Positions 5,827-20,014 of a stretch of DNA of 20,014 bases are shown here, piece after piece; the stretch's first letter is position 1, and each line of letters starts with the position of its first letter. Under the pieces are notes generated by a model. That model searched no databases. It was not told the origin of the DNA and was given only the letters and a program-made list of their open reading frames with translations. The position numbers were made by a program, and so were the translations under genes. Origin of the DNA: a virus; the IMG/VR virus record IMGVR_UViG_3300034375_005902, positions 1 through 20,014 of that record, one strand, 5' to 3'.

Positions 5827-6446
5827 CTGTATTGCCCCCACTTCTGTGAGTCGAGGAGAGCCTTGACGCCAAATGGCACTTCATTTGATGCCACATTGTC
5901 AGCGGCAAGCCTTCGCTCGTAGAGGTGACCGACGTGCATTAGGATCGCATGGCGAATGGCAGCAGGCACATCGCTGCCGCTGGCTCCGTAGCCGCCCCAC
6001 CATGTCACCGTGATGGAGTTCTGGTCTGCGAGGTGGCTCGGCCATGAGCCGCCATAGTTCGTGCGAGCAACGCCAGGGGTAGAGTCGCGGTCAACACGAT
6101 ACTCGCTCGTTGAGAGAGTTGCAGTCGTCTGCGAATCACTGATCGTATAGGTGATGCTGACTGCCGTCGTCGTGCCAGCCTGAGACATTGGCGGTCGTGG
6201 CATCTCGACTTCCCAAGGAAACGTGTCGAGTTTCATCTGCCACTGCGTATAGACCAGTGTGCGGTCAATGTAGGCTTCTGCCCACTGCCTCGCAGCCGTG
6301 ATGAGTGTGCCGATGTAAGTGTCATCGTCGCTGGTATCAACTCGCAAGTGAGCCTTCGCCTCGCTGACGCTCACCGGCTCAACTGCGGCGTCGGTTGCTC
6401 TCTTCAGCGAACGATACTCAGTTCTTGCGGAGTGAATGAATCTCAT
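5823..6446 (-). CDS. Head-tail connector protein (HK97 gp6-like)
   Basis: A 207-residue protein starting MRFIHSARTEYRSL. The segment PVSVSEAKAHLRVDTSDDDTYIGTLITAARQWAEAYIDRTL spans about residues 20-60 and is the hallmark of the gp6-like / phiE125 gp8 connector family. The same phrase is followed by a beta-rich middle and a C-terminal helix near AAIRHAILMHVGHLYERR. It forms the ring below the portal through which DNA passes. The ATG at 6446 overlaps the stop of the glycosyltransferase gene as ATGA and has GGAGAG 7 bases upstream. A TTG at 6461 is in frame but less convincing. Confidence 0.88.
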   Translation of the reverse strand: MRFIHSARTEYRSLKRATDAAVEPVSVSEAKAHLRVDTSDDDTYIGTLITAARQWAEAYIDRTLVYTQWQMKLDTFPWEVEMPRPPMSQAGTTTAVSITYTISDSQTTATLSTSEYRVDRDSTPGVARTNYGGSWPSHLADQNSITVTWWGGYGASGSDVPAAIRHAILMHVGHLYERRLAADNVASNEVPFGVKALLDSQKWGQYR

Positions 6447-7177
6447 CCCGGCACTCTCCAAGAGTTCTCAGGTCGCTTGTTCGTCGTCAGAAAATCGGTG
6501 CTGTACTGATAGACAGGCCCAGACAAGTTTTTACCGGGCCATGTCACCATATATTCTCCATGTCCAAGCACGACCCTTGGAGAGACGAACAACCGATTTC
6601 CTGCCTTCTTGAACTGCTTCCAAAAAAAGATGTCGTCATCAGTTCTGCTATCTCCCCACTCGCCATCGTCGTTCGGTATTCCTTGGAACCACGGCTTCGG
6701 AGTCCGCTTGAGTGCGGCTGTTGAGATGAACGTGCATCCGAAGTGTGCGGTGTCTACCTGCTGAACAGGTGCGCCGAACCATTCCATCGGCAGAGAAGAG
6801 TGAGATTCTTCAGGTGGGTTATCCATCGTGTCGAGCAGCGTCAGCATTGGCCTGCCGTCCTCACGCTTTGTTTGCAAGCCAGTGACGGCATCGCATTGAA
6901 ACGTCATCGCCAGAGTCAGCAGATGCTCGACATCTTCCTTGGTGAAGAATGTGTCGTAGTCGATCGTGAGGATGTACTCGCATTCGTCTACGAACTGCTC
7001 CATTACTCGCTGGAGACATTGGCCCCAGAACGCACCTGTCACCTTCGTTGGCCGAATGCCAAGCGGCATCAAGGCCTGAGCCCATGTATAGAAGTTGTCC
7101 ATGAAGCCAAGACGAGGCACTGACATCACTGCTTCAACACGAACGTCAGCGGTTGTGTCACCAACTTTGATAAGCAT
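6443..7177 (-). CDS. GT-A fold glycosyltransferase in the head-tail operon
   Basis: A 244-residue soluble protein with the layout of a GT2-like nucleotide-sugar transferase. The DxD-like metal and sugar-nucleotide motif is IDYDTF at residues 72-77. A mid-domain acceptor-loop pattern FGCTFISTAALKRTPKPWF lies at 146-164. An acidic cluster TDDD (179-182) is followed by a helix FFWKQFKKAG, and a His near residue 206 could be the C-terminal metal ligand. No membrane segment or signal peptide is present. The ATG at 7177 has a GGAG site 5 bases away and lies just behind a strong terminator. It overlaps the connector gene by ATGA, so it is co-translated with neck proteins. A role in glycosylating a capsid or tail protein is plausible; the acceptor is unknown. 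Confidence 0.8.
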   Translation of the reverse strand: MLIKVGDTTADVRVEAVMSVPRLGFMDNFYTWAQALMPLGIRPTKVTGAFWGQCLQRVMEQFVDECEYILTIDYDTFFTKEDVEHLLTLAMTFQCDAVTGLQTKREDGRPMLTLLDTMDNPPEESHSSLPMEWFGAPVQQVDTAHFGCTFISTAALKRTPKPWFQGIPNDDGEWGDSRTDDDIFFWKQFKKAGNRLFVSPRVVLGHGEYMVTWPGKNLSGPVYQYSTDFLTTNKRPENSWRVPG

Positions 7178-7719: not shown

Positions 7720-9081
7720 TCAAGAAGCGAACTTGAGACCGACGATCGGGCCAGCAACCGAGGTGCTGCCGAGATCATGAACAACCATGGCGTTGCGAGT
7801 TGTGGCGAACGTCAGCGTCTGATCGAACTCGATGTAACGCTCGGAAGCGGTACGGATCGAAACAGCACGTCGCTCACCGAACGTCGCAGCCTGTGACAGA
7901 TCACCGAAGAGGCAGGCAATCTCCGAGGCAGTGCCGGTCAGGTCGCTCACCATGCTGTGAACAAGCCGGACAGGAAAGCCAAGGAAGTTGAGGCCAGCAC
8001 CGCCAGCAATGTCGCTGGCAGAGTTGCCACTGCCTGCCATCATCAGACGAAGCATCGAAGACCCATAGCCAGCCGGCGAGATGTACCATGCTGCCTGACG
8101 ACGAGCGTACAGAGGCAGGCGGCTCACCGTGTTGGTGAAGTCATTGAGGTCAAGGTTGTCGAACGTGTTGTTGCCGCTGGCGGCATTCACGACCGACTTC
8201 GTGTGGCTGCCATCGTTGATCTTCGTGGTCACGCCAACAGTACCGTGATAGGTGCTGGTGCCGTCACCGATGAAGCCAGCGTTGTCGAAGGATTCAGCAA
8301 ACGCCTGAGCCACTTCAACAGCCATCGCATCAGCGAGGTCGATGATGGAGTCTTCAAGCAGCGAGTTTGGAACGCGATTGGCGACGCCCCAAATCTTCGC
8401 AACGAGTTGCACGTTGTCGAAGGTCACATCGCTGGTGCTGACTTCGGTGTTTTCACCAACAGCACGGGCGGCGAGTCCACCAGTGCGGCGAGCGATCACC
8501 AGGGTGTCAGACGACATCGGCACGCGGCGAGCGTACTGCGGAAAAGCACCGTACTCTTCAACGAGCCGGATGATTTCGCTGCTCATCTCGTCGCTGACCA
8601 GAACGCCACCAAGCGAGTTGACGCCGCCAGCCTGAGCCCGGCTTTCAACGCGGTGGTCTTCGCACCAGCGACGAGCCTCGGAGTCGTTGAACAGAGTGGC
8701 CTTCAGGTGCATGCCAGCACGATAGGCTCGCTCTTCAGCGTTCGGCCCAGTAAAAGCCTTGAGGTTGCCGACTGCCTTCGGCACGGCGAAGTTACGCTTT
8801 TCTTCCACGGCTGGTGCCTCCTCGGTTTTCTTCTCGATGGCTGCGGCAGGAGCAGATCGCTCAAGCACGGAACGCAGTTCAAGTTCCTTCGCCTGGATCT
8901 TTTCGCAGAACTCAATCTTCTCCTTGATCTTGTCTGCTCGCTCGGAGAGTTCCTTGAGTCGGCCCTCTTCATCATCGTGCATGTCGGCATCTTCGGTCAT
9001 GCCTTCTTCCATTGCTGACATCTCAGCGACAACGGAAGCGAGTTCATCGAGCAGTGCCTTGATCTTTTCTGCGTAAGCCAT
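7720..9081 (-). CDS. Major capsid protein, HK97 family
   Basis: A 453-residue protein. Residues 1-75 form a charged helical coiled coil (the scaffolding delta domain) and are followed by an Ala/Pro/Glu linker to about 95. The mature part begins near residue 150-160 with GGVLVSDEMSSEIIRLVEEYGAF, the usual start of HK97 capsid cores. GENTEV near 209-214 and IWGVANRVPNSLLEDS near 230-245 are further family landmarks. The core is likely released by the prohead protease encoded just upstream, with cleavage somewhere around residues 95-150. The ATG has AGGAG about 9 bases upstream. A second start inside the coiled coil is not supported. Confidence 0.95.
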   Translation of the reverse strand: MAYAEKIKALLDELASVVAEMSAMEEGMTEDADMHDDEEGRLKELSERADKIKEKIEFCEKIQAKELELRSVLERSAPAAAIEKKTEEAPAVEEKRNFAVPKAVGNLKAFTGPNAEERAYRAGMHLKATLFNDSEARRWCEDHRVESRAQAGGVNSLGGVLVSDEMSSEIIRLVEEYGAFPQYARRVPMSSDTLVIARRTGGLAARAVGENTEVSTSDVTFDNVQLVAKIWGVANRVPNSLLEDSIIDLADAMAVEVAQAFAESFDNAGFIGDGTSTYHGTVGVTTKINDGSHTKSVVNAASGNNTFDNLDLNDFTNTVSRLPLYARRQAAWYISPAGYGSSMLRLMMAGSGNSASDIAGGAGLNFLGFPVRLVHSMVSDLTGTASEIACLFGDLSQAATFGERRAVSIRTASERYIEFDQTLTFATTRNAMVVHDLGSTSVAGPIVGLKFAS

Positions 9082-9180: not shown

Positions 9181-9363
9181 CTACTTAGAACAAACAAGCG
9201 GTTGGCGGCGACGGATGTCGCTGGCATTGACTACGGACTTCTCATTATGGCCGCAGACGCTGCAACGCAAGTATCGAACCTGCAACGGACCTGATGCCCT
9301 ACTTGAGATACACCCTAGATATGCCTTGCGGCATCGCGGGCAAATGTCACCGGTCTTCGCCAT
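9181..9363 (-). CDS. Small zinc-ribbon protein
   Basis: A 60-residue protein starting MAKTGDICPRCRKAYL. It carries two Cys pairs, CPRC (residues 8-11) and CSVC (residues 34-37), with 22 residues between them, the pattern of a zinc ribbon. A further Cys lies near each end. The ATG at 9363 has a GGAG site 4 bases upstream and overlaps the end of the prohead protease by 17 bases, in a different frame. It may bind nucleic acid or protein, but the function is unknown. In-frame upstream codons continue the frame but lie inside the protease gene and lack a good start signal. It lies directly before the major capsid gene. Confidence 0.7.
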   Translation of the reverse strand: MAKTGDICPRCRKAYLGCISSRASGPLQVRYLRCSVCGHNEKSVVNASDIRRRQPLVCSK

Positions 9364-10513
9364 GCTTCTCCAGCCATTCGCGGTACTCGCCAATCTTGCC
9401 GTGCCAAGCCTCTCGCTTCTTGCAGCCTTCGGCACACTGCTCGCGGAACTGATCGTATGATCGCTTCGCAACAGCAACGCCAGAGTCAGGATAAGCAGGG
9501 TATGTCACAGGCCCGACATCATAGAGTTCGGCAATCTTGGTGACAGTGCGGATGCTGCGGCCTTCCTCCATGCTCCACTGCTCGCCGTCCTTTGCGATGA
9601 CGAATGAGAAGGATGAGCCACGCACGATGCCATTGGCAATGTTGCTGGCAATGTCCTTGCCGTAGGTTGTTTCCGGCACCGGAAACTCATACCGCAGACC
9701 GACCTCATCGACCGACATCTGCAATGTCTGCGGGTATCGTGCCAGCGGGTAGTTGGCATCATGGTTCCAGAGAGCCCGCGTCTCCAGCGGCTTCTTTCTG
9801 CCGCGTCGCTCCCTCACAAGGTCGAATGCCCCAGGATCAAGACGCTCAACAAAGTCACCCATGTCGAGCGAGTCAACGCCGAACTTGGCGGCATACCCGA
9901 CGATCCATTGCTGCGCCTCCTCGCCGCCTTCTTCCTTGGCTCGCGACTCAACCCGCAGCATGTCTTCGTCGCCTTCGACTTTGATCGACCGAACTTCGAT
10001 AGCCATAGACCTGCTCTCCTCGTCTGCGGCGTTTATCTGCCGCACAAGTTTTCCTGACCACGACCGCCCAGCGTCACCGCCCCACAATGCCCATGCGATC
10101 CGACCGGCAGACGGGAATCCTGATTGACCTGGGCTCCAGCCCTCTGCTTGCTTGTCTACTTCGTGGCGGTCGAAGTACGCTTTCATTCGCTTGGCAGTTG
10201 ACGGGCTGATTCTCGTCCCATTGCTCAGGTCGCGTGCGCGAGCAACGCCGACTGCCGTGCCGCCTCGTCCATATTCTCTTCGCCACTCAAGGCCTTTCTT
10301 CGCTTCTTCTCGCACGCCTGCCGGTGGCATGAAATCAATGTGGTCGTACTTGGCTCGCTCTTCTTCTGAGTATGCGATATTCAGTGCAGTCAACTGCTCA
10401 TTAGCATCATCCTCAGTTTCGTGGCAGGCTACCACCTCATGCGGCTCATCCTTCATCACAGCCCAAGGCTTTGAGACGGGACACTTCTCACTCTTCATGA
10501 CGTGATACGGCAT
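9347..10513 (-). CDS. HK97-type prohead protease with an N-terminal extra domain
   Basis: A 388-residue protein. The C-terminal half (about 200-355) is a peptidase S78 (HK97 gp4-like) domain: WIVGYAAKFGV opens it, the catalytic His is H251 in ALWNHD, and the catalytic Ser is at 300/301 in VRGSSFSF. It cleaves the capsid delta domain during maturation. Residues about 60-155 form a separate conserved domain (GLEWRREYGRGG, then SAGRIAWALWGGDAG) often found in phage head genes; its function is unknown to me. The first 55 residues look like a third small unit. The ATG at 10513 shares a base with the portal stop. The length is about twice that of a minimal HK97 protease (about 200), because of the N-terminal addition. 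Confidence 0.9.
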   Translation of the reverse strand: MPYHVMKSEKCPVSKPWAVMKDEPHEVVACHETEDDANEQLTALNIAYSEEERAKYDHIDFMPPAGVREEAKKGLEWRREYGRGGTAVGVARARDLSNGTRISPSTAKRMKAYFDRHEVDKQAEGWSPGQSGFPSAGRIAWALWGGDAGRSWSGKLVRQINAADEESRSMAIEVRSIKVEGDEDMLRVESRAKEEGGEEAQQWIVGYAAKFGVDSLDMGDFVERLDPGAFDLVRERRGRKKPLETRALWNHDANYPLARYPQTLQMSVDEVGLRYEFPVPETTYGKDIASNIANGIVRGSSFSFVIAKDGEQWSMEEGRSIRTVTKIAELYDVGPVTYPAYPDSGVAVAKRSYDQFREQCAEGCKKREAWHGKIGEYREWLEKHGEDR

Positions 10514-12288
10514 CAGTCGAGGGCTCCAATCTTCGTCAACGTGCTTGCCTTGTGACCTACCTGAACGTCACTCGGCTCCCAGCCATCGGCAAGTTCTTTG
10601 TAGACCGTAATCAAAACAGCGGGGTCATCCTCTGTACCTGTGATCGTAAAGGATGAATTAGGCACATTGATCTCACCATCGCGAACGATGCGAGCAATCT
10701 TGCCGCGCCCTCGACCTTCACCGCTGCCCCAAGACACGAAGTCGCCAACACTGATTGAGTCAGGTGCGGCTCGCTGCTCATTTTTGATGTATTGCGGCGA
10801 GTCATCAATCCACACATCGACCTTGATACCGGCAGCCTCCGCAGCCTCGTCTTTCATGGAGTCTCCGACGAGCAGAATGTCAGAGAATGCGTTTTTGTAC
10901 TCTCCAAGAGTTGCGTCAACGTCTACCTGATTCTCTGGAGTGTCTGGCCTCCGAGAGATCATCACGACGCGGTTGCCAGCCGCAGCCGATCCCTTTGCGA
11001 ACTCACCCCACATCTTCGGGTCAGCAGCGAACGTCCTGTCGTAGTCGATACTGATCGTCATGGCTCGCATCGACATGACCTGCTCGGGCTCAGGCTCTGG
11101 CATCACGCCACCTGCATTCGCCTGATCGAGCGTCTGCATGTTGAGTTGAACGAATCGCGTGTCGCCGCCATCGACTGGATCAAGATTCTCCCAGCGGCGA
11201 ATCTCGTTGATGCTGGCAACGCCAAGATTCCACAGCGTCTGGTAATACGACGCCCTCGCTGCGGCATCACCTCGCAGCAAACCGCGAGTGTCAAACTCAG
11301 CGAAGTATTGCGGATCGCTAATCAGGTCGCGGACGATGCTCGTTTCAAAGCGGCGAAGCCACGGCAGCAGGGTGTGCTGCACAAAGTCGATGCTCTGCTG
11401 TTCGATATTCGAGAACGACGAACGGGTCAGGTCGCCAACAAGGTGTGGCGGGCATCTATACAACCGACAGACTTCTTCCACTTGGAACCGGCGAGCCTCA
11501 AGGAACTGCGCCTCTTGATTGTTGCCGCCGAGTTCAACAGGCTTCAGGCCACCCGTCAGCACTGCGGTCCTACTGCTGTTCGCAGCACCACGGTGCATCC
11601 TCTCCCAGTTGTTTCGCAGTTGCTCTGATGCTTCTGCTGACAAGGTGTTATCGGTAGACAGCACCACGCCGGGCCTTGCCCCATTGCCGAAGAACGCCGC
11701 ACCGTGAATCTCACAGGCTCTCGCCAGCCCGATTGCATCGCGGGCCAACTCGACAGGGATCATGCCGTTTACGCCGTCATCTGACAGCCATCGCAGGTGC
11801 ATGATCTGATCTTGTCTATAGACTGTCTCGCTGCCTGTCTCTTCGCGGTACTTGTAACGCAGCCTGCCGTTTTCGATCCTCTCAACCTTCATGCGAGAAG
11901 GATGCAGAGGCCAGAGTTCGGTCACAGCACCCGCAGCACCGGGACGAATCTCTGAGTAGGCATTGCCCCACAGGCACAGGTGCAGCATCGACTGCTCTCG
12001 CCACTCGAAACTGGTCTGCCATGAGTTCGGCGTATCATGCAGGATGCGATAAAGCGGATGCTCGCGAGCGATCTCTTTGCCGCCATCAGGCAGGCGACGA
12101 AGCAGTTGCAGCGGTAGCCCAGCGATCGACTCAGCCAGCACCCTCGCACAAGCCAGAACGACGGTAGATTGCAGTGCCGTTTCAGGATTCACCCGCACGC
12201 CCGACGGATTCTGGCGAGTTAGAAAACCATCATTCCAGCCGTAATGACGCTCTTCCCCAGGCAACCAAAGGATTCTTTGTTCACTCAC
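10513..12288 (-). CDS. Portal protein with C-terminal HAD phosphatase and Tudor-like domains
   Basis: A 591-residue protein. Residues 1 to about 395 are an HK97-family portal (PF04860-like): NPETALQSTVVLACARVLAESIAGLPL near 35-61 and RYRCPPHLVG-type text near 277-285 are landmarks. After a Pro/Glu linker (397-403) comes a HAD-like domain (about 410-501) with motif I DYDRT (D415, D417), motif II Ser445, a Lys near 479 and motif IV IDDSP (D495, D496), so it appears catalytically intact. Residues about 512-587 (VGDFVSWGSGEG to STLTKI) are a Tudor-like domain known from phage head proteins. The start is GTG at 12288, overlapping the TerL stop as GTGA. No clear ribosome binding site is seen, so translational coupling is likely. 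Confidence 0.92.
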   Translation of the reverse strand: MSEQRILWLPGEERHYGWNDGFLTRQNPSGVRVNPETALQSTVVLACARVLAESIAGLPLQLLRRLPDGGKEIAREHPLYRILHDTPNSWQTSFEWREQSMLHLCLWGNAYSEIRPGAAGAVTELWPLHPSRMKVERIENGRLRYKYREETGSETVYRQDQIMHLRWLSDDGVNGMIPVELARDAIGLARACEIHGAAFFGNGARPGVVLSTDNTLSAEASEQLRNNWERMHRGAANSSRTAVLTGGLKPVELGGNNQEAQFLEARRFQVEEVCRLYRCPPHLVGDLTRSSFSNIEQQSIDFVQHTLLPWLRRFETSIVRDLISDPQYFAEFDTRGLLRGDAAARASYYQTLWNLGVASINEIRRWENLDPVDGGDTRFVQLNMQTLDQANAGGVMPEPEPEQVMSMRAMTISIDYDRTFAADPKMWGEFAKGSAAAGNRVVMISRRPDTPENQVDVDATLGEYKNAFSDILLVGDSMKDEAAEAAGIKVDVWIDDSPQYIKNEQRAAPDSISVGDFVSWGSGEGRGRGKIARIVRDGEINVPNSSFTITGTEDDPAVLITVYKELADGWEPSDVQVGHKASTLTKIGALD

Positions 12289-13889
12289 AGCAGCATGATC
12301 CCAGGTTCAGGTATGTCTTCGGGTGGCTTTTGTGCAGAGTGGATGCCGATTGCCATGATAAGACTGACGATGCCGTCGATGCGTTCTGCATTGCCCTGTT
12401 TAGGTTTCACAGGACGGAAGTTGCCGTTACTATCAACCTTGACGCTCGCGTTGCCCGCCATCCATGTCAGCACCTTGTTTCCAGCGTGTCGAATCTTGCC
12501 CGACACTACCAGATTTTCTAGCAGTTTCGAGGGAGCAGACATGCTTCCAATGCCCTGTGAAAAACCGACGACATCATGCCCATCTTGATTTAACTGAATC
12601 GACAACTGAGTCGCATTCCAGCGGTCGATCGCCAGTTGCCTCATGTTGTATTGGCGGGCAAACTCGTTGACATCTTTGCGGATCACATCGTAGTCAGTGA
12701 CATTGCCGTCAGTCATTTTCAATCCTGTCTCAGGCTCATTCGCCCAAGCAATGTACGGCACGCGATCACGCTTCTCTCGCTCGGCTGCGTTGTCACCGGG
12801 AATCCAGAAGCGACAAAGGATGTCGAATGTCCCATCTTCGGCGGGGAATAATGCGACAAATGCCGAGGTGTCGTAGGTTGTCGCAAGGTCAAGCCCGCAC
12901 CAGCACTCCCTGCCATCGAGAGGCCCCGGCGGCTTGTCGTCACAAGCCGCCCATGCCTCGGCTTTCAACCACCGAGTGTCAGCCTGGGTCCACATGTTCA
13001 GCCGGTAGCGTTTGAACGAGAACTCCTTGGTGTTGCTCTTCTGAGCCTCTTTGCAATCAGCCGCGAAGTCAGTCGGATTAATCGTTACTGACCATGATGG
13101 GTTCGCCTTCGGCCATGTTTCCTGATCAGTCCAATCGTCTTTTTCTTCTGCCTCATAGATCAGCGGAAAGAATGTCGGGTCATACTGCCAGTCCTCAAGG
13201 ACTCGCTTGGCATATTGGTACTGCTCATAGCAGATGGAGTTGCGATCAAAACCTGCCGTCGTGATCGAGCAGAGAAGCGGCTGCGACCGTGCTGCACCGC
13301 CATAGCGGAGCGAGTCGAAGAGGTCGCGGGTACGCTGTGCATGCAACTCATCGAAAAGCAGCCCATGGATATTGAGGCCTTCTGCCCTGAAAGCGTCAGC
13401 AGGCAAGACTCTGTAAAAAGATGAAGCAGCCTTGAAAGCAATCGTCCTACGAGAATCAACAACCTCCAGCGGCTTTGATAGGACCGGGGATGCCCTCACC
13501 ATGTTTGCCGCTTCTTTGAAAACCAGCGACGCTTGTTCCCTGTCCGCTGCAGCACCATAGATTTCTGCACCGGGCTCCCCATCGGCCAGCAAAAGATACA
13601 GACCAATGCCAGCGAGGATTGTTGACTTACCAGATTTCTTTGCCGTGCTGATGTAAGCCATACGATAGCGGCGAGTATCGTCGTCTATCCTTGCCCATCC
13701 GAAGAGTTCTTCAAGCATGTCGCGCTGCCAGTCAAGAAGCGCAAACGGTTTTCCTGCGAAGCGACCTTTCGAGTGCTTCAGGAAGTTTTGAAAAAACTCA
13801 ACGACATGATCTCCACGATTCTGGTCATAGAAGTATTCATGCCCCTGCTCGATCGCCTCTTTTTTGGATAAACGCGATAAGCGTGTCAT
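12285..13889 (-). CDS. terL: Terminase large subunit
   Basis: A 534-residue packaging motor and nuclease (Terminase_1 / HK97 family). The ATPase has Walker A STAKKSGKST (residues 81-90) and Walker B LLFDE (177-181, E181 as catalytic carboxylate). The nuclease domain offers D334 in GLDLATTYD, D422 in AIDRW and D505 in RIDG as metal ligands. The length is normal. The ATG at 13889 lies 53 bases inside the small terminase gene in another frame. It pairs with TerS and docks on the portal encoded next. A P27-type small subunit with this large subunit is common in cos-type (HK97-like) phages, although cohesive ends cannot be seen here. Confidence 0.96.
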   Translation of the reverse strand: MTRLSRLSKKEAIEQGHEYFYDQNRGDHVVEFFQNFLKHSKGRFAGKPFALLDWQRDMLEELFGWARIDDDTRRYRMAYISTAKKSGKSTILAGIGLYLLLADGEPGAEIYGAAADREQASLVFKEAANMVRASPVLSKPLEVVDSRRTIAFKAASSFYRVLPADAFRAEGLNIHGLLFDELHAQRTRDLFDSLRYGGAARSQPLLCSITTAGFDRNSICYEQYQYAKRVLEDWQYDPTFFPLIYEAEEKDDWTDQETWPKANPSWSVTINPTDFAADCKEAQKSNTKEFSFKRYRLNMWTQADTRWLKAEAWAACDDKPPGPLDGRECWCGLDLATTYDTSAFVALFPAEDGTFDILCRFWIPGDNAAEREKRDRVPYIAWANEPETGLKMTDGNVTDYDVIRKDVNEFARQYNMRQLAIDRWNATQLSIQLNQDGHDVVGFSQGIGSMSAPSKLLENLVVSGKIRHAGNKVLTWMAGNASVKVDSNGNFRPVKPKQGNAERIDGIVSLIMAIGIHSAQKPPEDIPEPGIMLL

Positions 13890-14366: not shown

Positions 14367-15458
14367 CTACCCCTTCATGATTTTCTTCAGTAGCATCATT
14401 GCCCTGGCGATTGATTGATCCATGTCATAGTATCTGTATTCACCAAGCCTTCCTGCAATGATGACATCATCCATCGAGTCCGCTCTCTCTCGGTACTTGC
14501 TGTACAACTCGCTGTTTTTGTCGTCGGGGAAGGGATACTCATATCTGTCTGGGTCACTCGGAGAATATGGAGTCTCTGTTGTGACGACCGTGCCGCGTAT
14601 GTTGTTTGCTACATCACATTGCAGCATATGCTTCCACTCCAGTGTTCTGATGTGAGGCCCCCCAGAATGCAAAGGGTTATTGATCTGTCCTTTTCTTTGA
14701 AAAAAGTCCAGATCGCCGTGATATTGATGCTTTCTTTTTTGCCCTCGATATTGCAGTCTTCCTATATCGAAATCAAAGAACTCGTCTATGGGGCCTGTGA
14801 AGACAAGTTTTTTTGAGGCGAAGACTTCTTCTCTTCTTTTCAGATAGTCGAAGTTCAGGATAACCGGTATCCCTGAGAAAATGTTGCTTGTCCAGGTTGC
14901 ATATCCTCCAACCGGAATGCCTTGATGCTTTGCAAGCGGCTTCAGTCTGCTGTCTCCATCGACCCTCACATCGAAACGCTTGCACAACTCAGCACTCAGG
15001 CTTTTGCAGTCCACTCCCCATTGTTTTTCGTTGTATTCCTTGACAAAAGTCTCAAAGATGCGGCGAGGCATCAACGACAACGCGGCTTCTTCAAGATTCG
15101 TTGGCTCGCCTTGAAATGATGGAGACCATTTTTCTCCAATCTTTGCTGAGATGTATTGAGATGACAAAGGCCACTGGACGAGATCGTCCCCAATGTCTGC
15201 AAGCAGGGACGCTTCATATCGATAGAACTCCGAGAAACGGTTGGCCCATTCCCATACTCGTTCACATGACGTTCTGAAGTAATGCGGTCCGTATGTGTGA
15301 ATCCTTATTCCCGACAAGTGAAAACGATCGTGAACATTTCCACCAATGTGATCGCGACGATCGACAACCACAACGTCTCGGCCTGAATCAAACAAACCCC
15401 TTGCTATCACGGCCCCGGTCAAGCCAGAACCCACGACAACATAGTCTGCCTTTATCAT
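14367..15458 (-). CDS. glf: UDP-galactopyranose mutase
   Basis: A 363-residue FAD enzyme that converts UDP-galactopyranose to UDP-galactofuranose. The FAD-binding VVGSGLTG (8-15) is followed by DRRDHIGGN (33-41), then YGPHYFRT (56-63), NEKQWGVD (143-150), TGPIDEFFDF (221-230), RTLEWKH (271-277) and GRLGEYRYYDMDQSIARAM (336-354). All of these are conserved blocks of the family and look intact. Length is normal (about 360-390). I chose the ATG at 15458, which overlaps the sulfotransferase stop as ATGA. A TTG at 15476 is in frame but not needed. This enzyme is unusual beside a terminase. It probably supplies a furanose donor to a glycosyltransferase in this phage. Confidence 0.95.
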   Translation of the reverse strand: MIKADYVVVGSGLTGAVIARGLFDSGRDVVVVDRRDHIGGNVHDRFHLSGIRIHTYGPHYFRTSCERVWEWANRFSEFYRYEASLLADIGDDLVQWPLSSQYISAKIGEKWSPSFQGEPTNLEEAALSLMPRRIFETFVKEYNEKQWGVDCKSLSAELCKRFDVRVDGDSRLKPLAKHQGIPVGGYATWTSNIFSGIPVILNFDYLKRREEVFASKKLVFTGPIDEFFDFDIGRLQYRGQKRKHQYHGDLDFFQRKGQINNPLHSGGPHIRTLEWKHMLQCDVANNIRGTVVTTETPYSPSDPDRYEYPFPDDKNSELYSKYRERADSMDDVIIAGRLGEYRYYDMDQSIARAMMLLKKIMKG

Positions 15459-16279
15459 CGCAACTTCGACTCCCAAACCTTTTTGCTTCGCGACAGTATT
15501 TCATCGGAGTCAATGTTGCACGAAGAGCCTACGGAGTCATAGCCGCCTATAAAACAATCCTCCTTGTAGACTTCGTGGATCGCGTCAGCAGCCTCTTGAG
15601 ACAGTCTTTCAGCGGGGGGCTTTTTCATCTCCTCGGTTTTTGAATACATCTTGGTATGCCTGCTTAATGAAAGATCGATTCCTATCGCCTTGCAGACGGC
15701 GGGCCAATCTTTGTCAATCTGTTCATACCGCCCAACAAACGAAAACTCTGGATAAGCCCACGACCATTGATGCGAAGTCAGATAGAACCTTAAAGAGCAA
15801 GGCCTTGTCTTCGCGTACCTTGATGATCTCAGAGAAACAGCAAACTCATTGAGGGATTTGCCTTGCACAAGCGTCTTTTTCCCGGCTTGCTCCCATGAGT
15901 TCAGAAGATTCCAAACGGATATGATTCTTGCCCACGGGTTGCGTATGAATGTGAAACTGAATCTTCTTTTGAACTCGGTTTTGGTCAGACACTTCTCCCG
16001 CAATAGAGCAGCAACGGGCGTATGATTGTGGCAGACGTTCACATGCGAATACAGCGGGTTTGAGTAAAAAACCTTGGCATGGTTCGCTTGATTGATTCTT
16101 ACATAGTCAAACACTCCTTGCTTCAGGATACCGTGCATGCTTTCAGAGGCTGTTCTCGGGATTTTCGTAAAAATGAACGGCCTTGCCCTTTGCCCATTGC
16201 CTCTTTTTTCGATGCTGACATTCCTTCTCTTCATGTCCGCAATAAGGGTGTCTGCATTTTTATTGCTTCCGTTTTTCAT
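15455..16279 (-). CDS. PAPS-dependent sulfotransferase (family 2-like)
   Basis: A 274-residue cytosolic protein that should move sulfate from PAPS to a sugar or other hydroxyl. The 5'-phosphosulfate loop is FTKIPRTASES (residues 37-47, K39 and S45). The 3'-phosphate motif is FIRNPWARIISVW (111-123, R113 and S121). A His cluster HNHTP near 84-88 could contain the catalytic base, and FVGRYEQIDKDW near 182-193 is a later family landmark. No membrane anchor is present, in contrast to Golgi carbohydrate sulfotransferases. The ATG at 16279 makes an ATGA overlap with the TAGT stop. The composition is AT-richer than the head genes. The acceptor is unknown; the neighbours suggest a phage-made glycan. 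Confidence 0.88.
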   Translation of the reverse strand: MKNGSNKNADTLIADMKRRNVSIEKRGNGQRARPFIFTKIPRTASESMHGILKQGVFDYVRINQANHAKVFYSNPLYSHVNVCHNHTPVAALLREKCLTKTEFKRRFSFTFIRNPWARIISVWNLLNSWEQAGKKTLVQGKSLNEFAVSLRSSRYAKTRPCSLRFYLTSHQWSWAYPEFSFVGRYEQIDKDWPAVCKAIGIDLSLSRHTKMYSKTEEMKKPPAERLSQEAADAIHEVYKEDCFIGGYDSVGSSCNIDSDEILSRSKKVWESKLR

Positions 16280-17178
16280 GGCTGGATTCCCTTGCGATAC
16301 TTCTCGCTGAGCAACACCGGGCAAGTCTTCTTCCAAATGACCTTATGGTGAATCCTCCACTTCCCCGCCATTCGCGCAACTTTGACGCACGACGGAGCAA
16401 CCATAACGGAATAGAAGGATTTGATGTACGTTCCAAGTTCGAGATAAATCTCGGTGCATCCTCCTGTTCTCTTTTGCGTAGGAGGCTGATACACCCTTAC
16501 ATGCGGAATCGTGGCAAACAAGTCTCCTCTTCTCCCGCCCTCAACATAGAGATTCACGTCGTCATTCACCCGACCCCGAAAGACCACTGGTCTGTCAGTC
16601 CGAAAGAAAAAACTGTTCATTACCTTCCGGTACATTCTTCCGGACCTATGCAACTTCATCAGCAACGATTTTTGATGAGGAGTGTCTGGGCCTCCATCAC
16701 CACCGATAAAGTCTCCTCCCTGAGCAAAGGCAACAGACTTGAACGACGTGCTGTCAAGAAAGTCCAGGCAATGCTCAAATACTGCGTCAATGTTCTTGAT
16801 CTGGGTTTCTTCAACTTTCCAGATGTATTCGTCTTTGTCGTTGAGCCTCCATGTGAAGTCTGTGTAATCGTCGTCAAGTTGAAGGAAATGCGTTAGACGC
16901 ATTTCCTTGGCTAAAATGAAGTTGTAGTTTCTCGCGTAGACAATCGAGTTTCTTCGATCATAGTTGTCGCAGGCATCAACCTGATTGGAGAAAGAAGTCT
17001 TGTCGAATACGATCACCTCATCGCCATACTTTTCGATGTACTGATCAGCCTGAGAGTCTTCGTTATCTACCAGAATGTAGATTTTCCCCGTATATCCGCT
17101 GCTCCTAAGTGCGTCATATGTCAGCAGAGAATCAGCGCGACCGTGAGAAAGAATAAAAGCGGCAAAATTTCGTTTCAT
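16276..17178 (-). CDS. TAGT/GREB1-type glycosyltransferase
   Basis: A 300-residue protein of the phage family linked to TET/JBP-associated glycosyltransferases and the GREB1 C-terminal domain. Features: FILSHGRADSLLT (8-20), ILVDNEDSQADQYIEKYGD (35-53), VIVFDK (55-60), the DxD-type LQLDDDY (99-105), FAQGGDFIGG (151-160), FRTDRPVVFRGRVNDDVN (192-209) and a C-terminal MAGKWRIHHKV (270-280). The family as described by Iyer and colleagues is proposed to glycosylate modified bases in phage DNA; I cannot see a base hydroxylase in this window. The ATG at 17178 overlaps the ParB-like stop as ATGA. The three genes that follow it are coupled the same way. Substrate assignment is inference. Confidence 0.85.
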   Translation of the reverse strand: MKRNFAAFILSHGRADSLLTYDALRSSGYTGKIYILVDNEDSQADQYIEKYGDEVIVFDKTSFSNQVDACDNYDRRNSIVYARNYNFILAKEMRLTHFLQLDDDYTDFTWRLNDKDEYIWKVEETQIKNIDAVFEHCLDFLDSTSFKSVAFAQGGDFIGGDGGPDTPHQKSLLMKLHRSGRMYRKVMNSFFFRTDRPVVFRGRVNDDVNLYVEGGRRGDLFATIPHVRVYQPPTQKRTGGCTEIYLELGTYIKSFYSVMVAPSCVKVARMAGKWRIHHKVIWKKTCPVLLSEKYRKGIQP

Positions 17179-17990
17179 TCGGAGTCGTCCCTCTCTTCGG
17201 CAAATGCCTTGTTGAGATTTTCGCCAAGTTTTGCCCATCCATTTTTGATCGCTTCACCTAAATCCACGATGACAAGAGCACTCGCCTCCATAAGCCTTTG
17301 AGTCTCTGGATCGGAGTGTGCGTAAAACTCAGCGGCTTTTTGAAAATCAAAAACGGAGTGACGATACGCCGCAGCCCTCAGAAAAACTTTTTCATCTTCT
17401 GGGACTGAACTGGCATCAATATCCTTGATAAGTTTCTCCGTTGTCGAACAATCAAAGATGTCACCAAGATCGGGTTTCTCTGCTCGCACTTCATAGGCAG
17501 GTACTTCTGTCTTTTCCGTGTAAGGAGAATCATTTGGATTGCTATTCTCCTTTTGCTCAGAGTCATCCTGAAAGTCTTGCTCGAAAATCGACTGCTCTGA
17601 ACTGCTCTGCATCATTTGCTGCAAGGCATCATTTCCGATGTCGATACTCTCGATGAGACTGCTTAACTTCTCCGAGTCGCTCTCAGCCATCGCGGCCAGC
17701 GGATCGAGCGTCGCGAGAATCTTGTCTGCCTCGGCTTCGTCAACATCGAGGATGAGGACCGGGACAACTTCGGCCCCGATCGTCTCTGCCCTGAGATGCC
17801 CGTCGATGAGCATCAGCGACCCGTCATCGAGTTCACGGGCGAGGCAGGCGTCGGCCATGCCGACTTCTGCGAGGATGCCTTTGAGTGCATCCTGTTGAGC
17901 CTTGGGATGCGTTCGCCAGTTCTTCGGGTTCGGGCGAAGATCAGAAGCCGGAACGTGCCTGAGTTCCTTGATCCGATTGCGAATCTGCAT
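17175..17990 (-). CDS. ParB/Srx-like domain protein with extra C-terminal domain
   Basis: A 271-residue protein. Residues 1-110 are a ParB N-terminal-type domain: ASDLRPNPKNWRTHPKAQQDALKG (about 15-38) and LIDGHLRAE (about 61-69) with the conserved GHxR motif. Such domains use NTP (CTP in true ParB) or act as nucleases in phages. A Gln/Ser/Glu-rich linker (about 125-170) leads to a helical C-terminal domain (about 180-260) with VPEDEKVFLRAAAYRHSVFD and SALVIVDLGEAI, which I recall from other phage ParB-like proteins but cannot name. The start at 17990 lies 50 bases inside the HNH gene and fits the usual N-terminus. It is the first gene coupled to the glycan cassette. Function is unknown. Confidence 0.85.
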   Translation of the reverse strand: MQIRNRIKELRHVPASDLRPNPKNWRTHPKAQQDALKGILAEVGMADACLARELDDGSLMLIDGHLRAETIGAEVVPVLILDVDEAEADKILATLDPLAAMAESDSEKLSSLIESIDIGNDALQQMMQSSSEQSIFEQDFQDDSEQKENSNPNDSPYTEKTEVPAYEVRAEKPDLGDIFDCSTTEKLIKDIDASSVPEDEKVFLRAAAYRHSVFDFQKAAEFYAHSDPETQRLMEASALVIVDLGEAIKNGWAKLGENLNKAFAEERDDSE

Positions 17991-19110: not shown

Positions 19111-20014
19111 TCAAAACATATCGTCTGCGGTGCAGTTGCCGTCCTGCAAAACACCGTCAATCCATTCCCGGTAGTCAGCGAGCCACGGCCCAGTGCCTCC
19201 ACCTGACTGAAGCGGCCATGCCAGCACCAGCCGGTCGCCCTTCAGGAAGCAAACGCTACTGCCGCTATCGCCAACCTGAATACTAGCAGGATACTTTGCT
19301 CTTGCCTCGTTCCAGCAGGGGTACACGAACCCCGTCGAAGTGCTGGCCGCAACATATGACAAATCGTTGAGCCCCGGCGGCTTGCTGGCATTGCCATCTG
19401 AGAAGTAGACCAGCGGCGGTGCATCGCCTGCCGGATACTGCGTCGGAGGGCCACCGGCATGCGGCATCTTGCCCGTCCACTCTTTCGACAGCAGTTGTGC
19501 TGGCCTGATCTCCATGTCTCGGTCTAGCGTGGCAATGCAGAGGTCGGCCGATGGGTGGCGGGCCACTGCCGTGACCGTGGCAGTTTCACCTCGCCAGAAA
19601 CGCACAACGTGGCCGATCGGCGGTGCATAGTGGTTAACGTGAACCGTGTGTCGAGGCGTGATAAGTGTGCCGTTGCGGCTGCTCTTCACAACTGGAGAAC
19701 AGTCAATCGCGTCTATCCACTGGTCGCCGTGAGTTTTAATGGCATCGTCAACTGACCGGCTGAATGTCTTCTCAGTCTCACTCAGGTCGATGGTTATCTG
19801 ACCGGCGTCTTTGATGTCCCAGCCGTAGTCGATGAGTTCTTCACGGTACTGTCTTGCGTACTCGGTGAACTTAGACTCGCCCATATCGACAGGAGACATG
19901 GGTGTCGGCAATGTGCCTGCTCGCATCTGAGCATGGACGTTTCGGAGGAACTCGTTGTAATAGACGGATGCCATGCCACTACCGCCGCCAAAGAAGTTGC
20001 GGAAGGCATCTGGC
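19111..20014 (-). CDS. Trypsin-like serine protease-domain protein, 5' end outside window
   Basis: The reading frame is open from the stop at 19111 through the right edge. An ATG at 19974 would give 287 residues, but it has no ribosome binding site and the frame continues upstream as PDAFRNFFGGGSG, so the gene probably starts outside the window. Counting from that Met, the chymotrypsin-fold triad candidates are H109 in ITPRHTVHV, D144 in SADLCIATLD and S237 in VGDSGSSVCFL, all in the right order. A C-terminal LADYREWIDG helix is also typical. No signal peptide is visible in the part seen. A Gly-rich segment before the Met suggests the protease domain is attached to another domain. Substrate and role are unknown. 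Confidence 0.72.
   Translation of the reverse strand, partial: PDAFRNFFGGGSGMASVYYNEFLRNVHAQMRAGTLPTPMSPVDMGESKFTEYARQYREELIDYGWDIKDAGQITIDLSETEKTFSRSVDDAIKTHGDQWIDAIDCSPVVKSSRNGTLITPRHTVHVNHYAPPIGHVVRFWRGETATVTAVARHPSADLCIATLDRDMEIRPAQLLSKEWTGKMPHAGGPPTQYPAGDAPPLVYFSDGNASKPPGLNDLSYVAASTSTGFVYPCWNEARAKYPASIQVGDSGSSVCFLKGDRLVLAWPLQSGGGTGPWLADYREWIDGVLQDGNCTADDMF

Follow-up and report, generated by a model that had tools for sequence, protein, structure and literature searches.

A phage portal gene continued in frame by HAD phosphatase-like and Tudor-like modules behind candidate prohead-protease sites

Portal proteins form a dodecameric ring at one vertex of the phage head, with their C-termini (the crown) directed towards the head interior. 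Protein cargo of the head is exemplified by the internal proteins of phage T4, which carry a capsid-targeting sequence, are freed by the prohead protease within the prohead, and are injected. Portals fused to PBECR, 2H phosphoesterase, InPase or lysozyme domains have been described amongst the polyvalent proteins and are thought to be packaged and injected (PMC5512222), and injection has also been proposed for toxins linked to MuF (PMC5576092). In SPN3US, portal, capsid and ejection proteins all carry one common motif at which the prohead protease cuts them (PMC10052503), and the capsid protein of the HK97-like phage phi12 is cut at R128↓L129 (the arrow marks the cut), where a Lys or Arg at P1, the residue before the cut, is the only feature common to this site and the other site of that phage (PMC8569155). 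Here, we describe a portal gene from IMG/VR virus record IMGVR_UViG_3300034375_005902 (positions 1 to 20,014; the window, meaning the whole 20,014 nt stretch that was analysed), in which the portal continues in frame into a HAD phosphatase-like module and a Tudor-like module, each preceded by a predicted prohead-protease site.

As in the polyvalent proteins (PMC5512222), an enzymatic domain is carried on the portal, and one sister portal (L185) itself carries ART-PolyVal; unlike in the polyvalent proteins, the modules of the window type have protease-like sites at their borders and are reshuffled as cassettes, and we found no HAD or Tudor domain amongst the portal fusions in the text of that study. 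The MuF polymorphic toxins (PMC5576092) share with this locus a variable C-terminal effector on a head protein at the portal locus, and their metallopeptidase and ADP-ribosyltransferase payloads belong to kinds also seen amongst the sister portals. In contrast to these toxins, the carrier is the portal and the payload is phosphatase-like, and a Pfam scan that covered the portal and the tails of its relatives detected no MuF family. Portal–effector fusions are known, but no paper describing a portal–HAD fusion or a slot bounded by cut sites was found in the literature searched, which did not take in most subscription journals.

The portal ORF (open reading frame) contains no internal stop across its 591 codons, and its GTG start overlaps the terminase stop codon, in a head gene order of small terminase subunit (TerS), large terminase subunit (TerL), portal, S78 protease and capsid protein. 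PF04860 covers residues 43–368 (E 2e-110) and TIGR01537, the HK97 portal family, covers residues 33–374 (E 2e-81; 273.7 bits against a cut-off of 112). The first-pass annotation had proposed that portal, HAD and Tudor domains share one frame in an unusually long portal, and both points hold: the frame is uninterrupted on the minus strand, and HK97 gp3 has only 424 residues compared with 591 here. The HAD region (residues 407–507) matches phrog_4919 (E 2e-14) and phrog_4256, families of small phage proteins of unknown function that have relatives with the HAD motifs, whilst Hva1_TUDOR (PF11160) matches residues 515–561 at 25.7 bits, slightly over its gathering threshold of 24.1. A search of the Tudor profile against the PDB gave no useful match. 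The AlphaFold2 model of residues 405–591, built from 67 aligned sequences, had a mean predicted local distance difference test score of 94.2 and showed two compact, separate domains.

The boundary between portal and HAD is marked by an arginine, R408, that was followed in 77 distinct tails of related portals. On the tree, R408 has undergone 25 codon changes and no amino-acid change, and all six Arg codons are used, whilst each of the six linker positions before it has changed 9–15 times; its constraint equals that of the catalytic residues of the HAD. The residue after it (P1') is Ala or Ser only, and R408-A409 directly precedes the residue aligned with the start Met of stand-alone HADs. A similar signature stands before the Tudor module, where all 52 distinct boundary windows contain [RK][AS] (R[AS] in 50), irrespective of whether the module follows the portal linker, the HAD or part of a protease polyprotein. 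The motif thus moves with each module in both orders (LNGAQ-HAD-Tudor and LNGAQ-Tudor-HAD), and in protease polyproteins. The density of ExR[AS] was 42–48 per 1000 residues at module boundaries, compared with 0–6.5 within the portal, capsid, protease, HAD and Tudor domains.

The same motif recurs in the capsid protein and protease of these phages. The HK97 capsid protein is processed at K103↓S104; both residues were checked in the deposited sequence NC_002167, and in three alignment modes this position aligned with VExR↓A of the capsid proteins encoded on the same contigs as the portals. The Arg of this capsid junction is present in 67/67 phage sequences, and Ala occupies P1' in 64. The protease carries two N-terminal accessory modules (residues about 1–53 and 54–168) that match PHROG 3684/4280 and 2859, of unknown function, with PHROG limits of 15–53 and 55–165, and E-x-R↓[AS] at R53, R168 and R191 coincides with the limits of these modules and the start of the protease domain. 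Capsid protein and portal modules, therefore, have a processing motif in common, with xR↓[AS] at module starts and VExR↓A at the HK97 cut position. Separately, the accessory modules were seen in protease and protease–capsid fusion proteins of other phages. In the cultured Roseobacter phage CRP-811 (L211:3620-6070), the annotated 'major capsid protein' is an accessory module–Tudor–protease–capsid polyprotein that has the same Tudor cassette and the same R↓[AS] junctions, here EKER↓S, DEVR↓AEP and VGVGR↓AAE. The features discussed here are collected in Table 1.

Table 1. Coordinates of head-gene features and predicted processing sites in the window
Feature	Position	Strand	Basis
Terminase large subunit	12285..13889	minus	PF20441, PF03354
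Portal–HAD–Tudor ORF	12288..10513	minus	591 residues, GTG start
Portal core, residues 1–408	11065..12288	minus	PF04860 and TIGR01537
Predicted prohead-protease site 1, SM-R408↓A409	11062..11067	minus	Arg invariant in 77 distinct tails
HAD phosphatase module (predicted), residues 409–506	10771..11064	minus	phrog_4919, motifs, AlphaFold2, VIA-align
Predicted prohead-protease site 2, EQ-R506↓A507	10768..10773	minus	[RK][AS] in 52/52 Tudor boundary windows
Hva1_TUDOR-like module, residues 507–591	10516..10770	minus	PF11160; alignment
Prohead protease (Peptidase_S78)	9347..10513	minus	PF04586 E 3e-35, TIGR01543
Predicted site EEE-R53↓A54 between protease modules	10352..10357	minus	Motif scan; flanking PHROG matches stop at 53 and resume at 55
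Predicted site EES-R168↓S169, accessory module/protease	10007..10012	minus	'ADExxR↓S' recurs in relatives having the module
Predicted site VES-R191↓A192 before protease domain	9938..9943	minus	'VExR↓[AS]' recurs; a few with Cys at P1'
Major capsid protein (HK97 fold) with N-terminal delta domain	7720..9081	minus	PF05065 E 1e-33, TIGR01554 E 1e-47
Predicted delta-domain site VES-R148↓A149, capsid protein	8635..8640	minus	Aligned with HK97 K103↓S104

The fusion, the intact HAD motifs, the shuffling of modules and the invariant R↓[AS] that matches the capsid and protease junction motif can all be read from the sequences. On balance, we lean towards a reading in which the portal is a polyprotein, with HAD and Tudor modules that are cut free by the prohead protease within the procapsid and are probably ejected as cargo. 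Twelve portal copies would form the ring and carry the modules inside the procapsid, where the S78 protease, which would also remove the capsid delta domain at VESR↓A, would cut the portal at SMR408↓A and EQR506↓A. The predicted products are a 408-residue portal (~45 kDa) and up to 12 HAD (~11 kDa) and 12 Tudor (~9 kDa) modules in the head, and the freed HAD would enter the host with the DNA, to act early on phosphorylated nucleic-acid ends or nucleotides. Because the invariant R↓A/S before every module matches the processing sites of the capsid protein and protease, the prohead protease is predicted to release the modules, and we regard actual cleavage at the portal sites as probable. Retention and ejection of the freed modules are proposed with less assurance, as a possibility of somewhat under even standing. 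A virion portal of ~45 kDa would not refute the fusion, because processing predicts a portal of that size together with pieces of ~11 and ~9 kDa.

A number of points weigh against this reading. Cleavage is deduced from sequence motifs, and the inward orientation of the C-terminus of this particular portal is taken from general knowledge of portals. The first site in the window is SMRA rather than ExRA, and amongst the 77 relatives P3 of this site is Glu in 36 and Ala in 30. Since some R[AS] dipeptides fall within folded Tudor and portal domains, a site cannot be recognized from the dipeptide by itself; ExR[AS] also occurs four times in window proteins outside the head genes. The profile comparison of the HAD with T4 Pnkp gave a probability of 1.4 %, which is not significant. 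Finally, freed modules of 9–11 kDa might leak out with the delta-domain fragments. In three lineages (L029, L030 and L032) the Tudor boundary has Lys (K↓A), and no matching capsid protein was recognized at these loci.

The fusion is widespread in relatives. Viral contigs were scanned with the portal, the HAD–Tudor stretch and profiles of the HAD and of the portal core. Of the 106 distinct closed portals recovered, 66 have the HAD within the portal ORF and 58 have a Tudor domain; the portal-core scan, which does not select for the HAD, found it in 35/62 distinct closed portals. Amongst the 16 architectures shown by the tails of these portals are a swapped order of the two modules (L112, L116, L190), tails with only one of the two, be it HAD or Tudor, and tails with a second Tudor-like module. 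HAD presence requires 23 changes on the portal tree compared with a mean of 32 when shuffled, and modules are, therefore, gained and lost, though not at random. The whole fusion was absent from 50,697 deposited phages, where none of 1871 portal matches covered 80 % of the query. A search of 84,980 species gave three genomic matches, all of them metagenome-assembled genomes (MAGs) of Planctomycetota, and a survey of Planctomycetota genomes found the HAD in 1/392 sampled, namely the query genome itself. The fusion-bearing phages form a large uncultured aquatic group, the host of which is apparently Planctomycetota.

Searches of phage sequences bore out the earlier statement that HADs of this type usually stand alone in phages. 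These stand-alone proteins (phrog_4919/phrog_4256) resemble the portal module in their size (~95 residues) and motif series (DxDxT ... [ST]xR ... K ... VDVWxDD), and differ from it as separate small genes without an R↓[AS] leader. The nearest of them is encoded in a Planctomycetaceae MAG (L205), where the HAD is a separate gene directly after the protease, and clusters with the fused HADs on the tree (support 0.93). This grouping suggests that the portal absorbed a neighbouring head-cluster gene. A further HAD in an ORF separate from the portal was seen in a Phycisphaerales MAG (L204:4330-6159), with an LPEAR↓A leader and a short helical-looking N-terminus (MTLIVEDFYGAITRLAEEL) that is possibly a head-targeting leader; a run of N follows in that contig.

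The HAD module looks active, as a predicted capless, Mg-dependent phosphatase. Motifs I (DxDxT), II (S/T), III (K) and IV (DD) are present and conserved (D415, D417, T419, S445, R447, K479, D495 and D496), and those of these residues that the first-pass annotation had named, like the Met codons at 405, 407 and 410, lie exactly where it had placed them. Its view that the motifs are intact also stands, as the catalytic residues do not vary amongst 54 distinct fused HADs or amongst the 77 tails, apart from S445, which is sometimes Thr. Catalysis is implied because D415, D417, K479, D495 and D496 are completely conserved, and a degenerate HAD was rejected on the invariance of the motifs. PF13242 reached 14.2 bits, below its cut-off of 22, and no curated HAD family in Pfam passed its threshold; the cut-off is a threshold for naming, and the module has the motifs and fold of a HAD regardless. 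Between the window and L049, dN/dS (the ratio of nonsynonymous to synonymous substitution rates; YN00) was 0.20 for the HAD and 0.10 for the Tudor module, this being the usable HAD pair, as synonymous sites were saturated in most others.

The nearest solved folds by VIA-align were the T4 Pnkp 3'-phosphatase (Z 10.1 over 97 residues) and MDP-1 (Z 9.4), with acid phosphatases including AphA also near and the best matches at Z 8–10. Foldseek against the PDB gave no significant match (best E 0.017), and sequence searches of the PDB returned only designed proteins and weak AphA matches. In a profile alignment that is short and not statistically significant, S445-x-R447 is paired with S211-x-R213 of T4 Pnkp. 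The T4 enzyme is, thus, the nearest in fold and shares the S-x-R form of motif II, but it has no significant sequence similarity to the module, and no kinase domain is present here. Because the nearest folds are T4 Pnkp, MDP-1 and acid phosphatases, and because of the S-x-R motif, our best guess for the substrate class, a doubtful one, is phosphorylated nucleic-acid ends or nucleotides.

The slot occupied by the HAD holds other domains in sister portals, with Zeta_toxin in L161 (E 2e-20), ART-PolyVal in L185 (E 6e-14) and, judged by eye only, a peptidase-like domain in L204. An effector and a portal domain thus share one polypeptide in the portal–HAD–Tudor protein and in the sisters with ART-PolyVal and Zeta_toxin. 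We suggest that the modules are effectors for ejection because toxin, ART and peptidase-like domains occupy the same slot. Several features of these tails were noted in passing. A conserved [RK]-[ND]CGTGxGGFxxGNxCA stretch, followed by a Gly/Ser-rich linker, precedes the cargo in L161, L183, L185, L204 (a variant), L013, L173 and L097, and the cargo after this stretch is toxin-like or unknown. Most relatives (L006, L011, L058 and L135 among them) have a conserved helical stretch, 'SLNGAQITGLIAIV...AAAMIAASFPSI...IDAILAG', that separates the portal core from the cargo and is missing from the window portal. Many cargo-bearing portals (L112, L006, L011, L135 and others) end in a strongly basic tail such as KPRRRKRG, which could bind packaged DNA.

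The first-pass annotation had suggested that twelve copies per virion would put the phosphatase at the portal vertex. In that case, the 12 HAD–Tudor modules would stay on the crown and act there on DNA ends or nucleotides, as the single ORF, the well-folded modules of the model and the intact catalytic residues would allow. An intact fusion leaves unexplained why the R↓[AS] at module starts is invariant and the same as that at the capsid and protease junctions, and such wide variation in module presence, order and identity is odd for a structural part of the vertex. Permanent residence is, therefore, doubtful, as the Arg before every module predicts release by the protease, and we consider it unlikely. 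Release alone would also fit transient assembly parts, in which modules acting as scaffold or adaptor, like the delta domain, are cleaved and lost, and the HAD is a folding or binding unit; the processing motif is the same as that of the delta domain, and related modules are found on the protease, an assembly factor. The complete conservation of D415, D417, K479, D495 and D496 implies catalysis, however, phages of the same clade do without the HAD, and toxin and ART domains occur in the same slot, so that we rate a purely transient role as improbable.

Internal initiation at Met405, Met407 or Met410, also raised by the first-pass annotation, would yield a separate HAD–Tudor protein from the three in-frame ATG codons in the window. 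Met410 is, however, replaced in 18/77 tails by Leu (CTG, CTC) or Val (GTC, GTT), relatives seldom have Met405 or Met407, and the sequence upstream lacks a convincing ribosome-binding site; as internal starts would explain neither the invariant Arg nor the site before the Tudor module, we consider them very improbable. The window comes from an uncultured viral contig and one relative (L014) has frameshifts, which might raise the suspicion that assembly or sequencing had fused two genes. This explanation is refuted because dozens of contigs from many samples and different metagenomes share the in-frame fusion, with HAD identity of 60–100 %, and we give it practically no weight.

The release of cargo from the portal by the prohead protease, as we propose, would work like that of the T4 internal proteins, in that cargo enters the prohead within a larger polypeptide; it would differ in the carrier, which is the portal, in the cut after Arg rather than Glu, and in the S78-type protease. 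The SPN3US proteins gp245 and portal gp81 (PMC10052503) differ in the AXE↓ motif, and in that the portal sheds an N-terminal propeptide without a known enzyme. We tentatively extend the proposal to a general HK97-type cargo route, in which the portal (and the protease) may be a plug-in carrier and each cassette may bring its own prohead-protease site. The cassettes might comprise HAD phosphatase, Tudor, Zeta toxin, ART and peptidase-like domains, a defined small number of which could be freed per head for ejection, again a tentative suggestion.

The proposal bears on how an enzyme that is part of the packaging ring might come to act in the host infected next. If a slot bounded by cut sites is correct, the portal would set the dose and the maturation protease would free the cargo. 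Head cargo would become predictable from sequence in uncultured phages, as xR↓[AS] cassettes near S78 proteases, and phages of Planctomycetota would be linked to early-infection effectors. It would also represent a natural scheme for loading ~12 protein copies into HK97-like shells.

Elsewhere in the window, positions 14367–17238 of the minus strand form an island of lower G+C content (0.46–0.48) between the terminase genes and a ParB/HNH-like pair. The island encodes a UDP-galactopyranose mutase (PF03275, E 4e-44), a Sulfotransfer_2 protein (E 3e-9) and a TET-associated glycosyltransferase (PF20691, E 3e-31), a hint that the DNA is glycosylated or hypermodified, or that the virion bears glycans. 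A weak glycosyltransferase-2-like gene (E 0.07) lies at 6443–7177 on the minus strand, within the head–tail block, and a protein with a trypsin-like peptidase domain (PF13365, E 0.003, under the Pfam cut-off) is encoded at 19111–19974, also on the minus strand.

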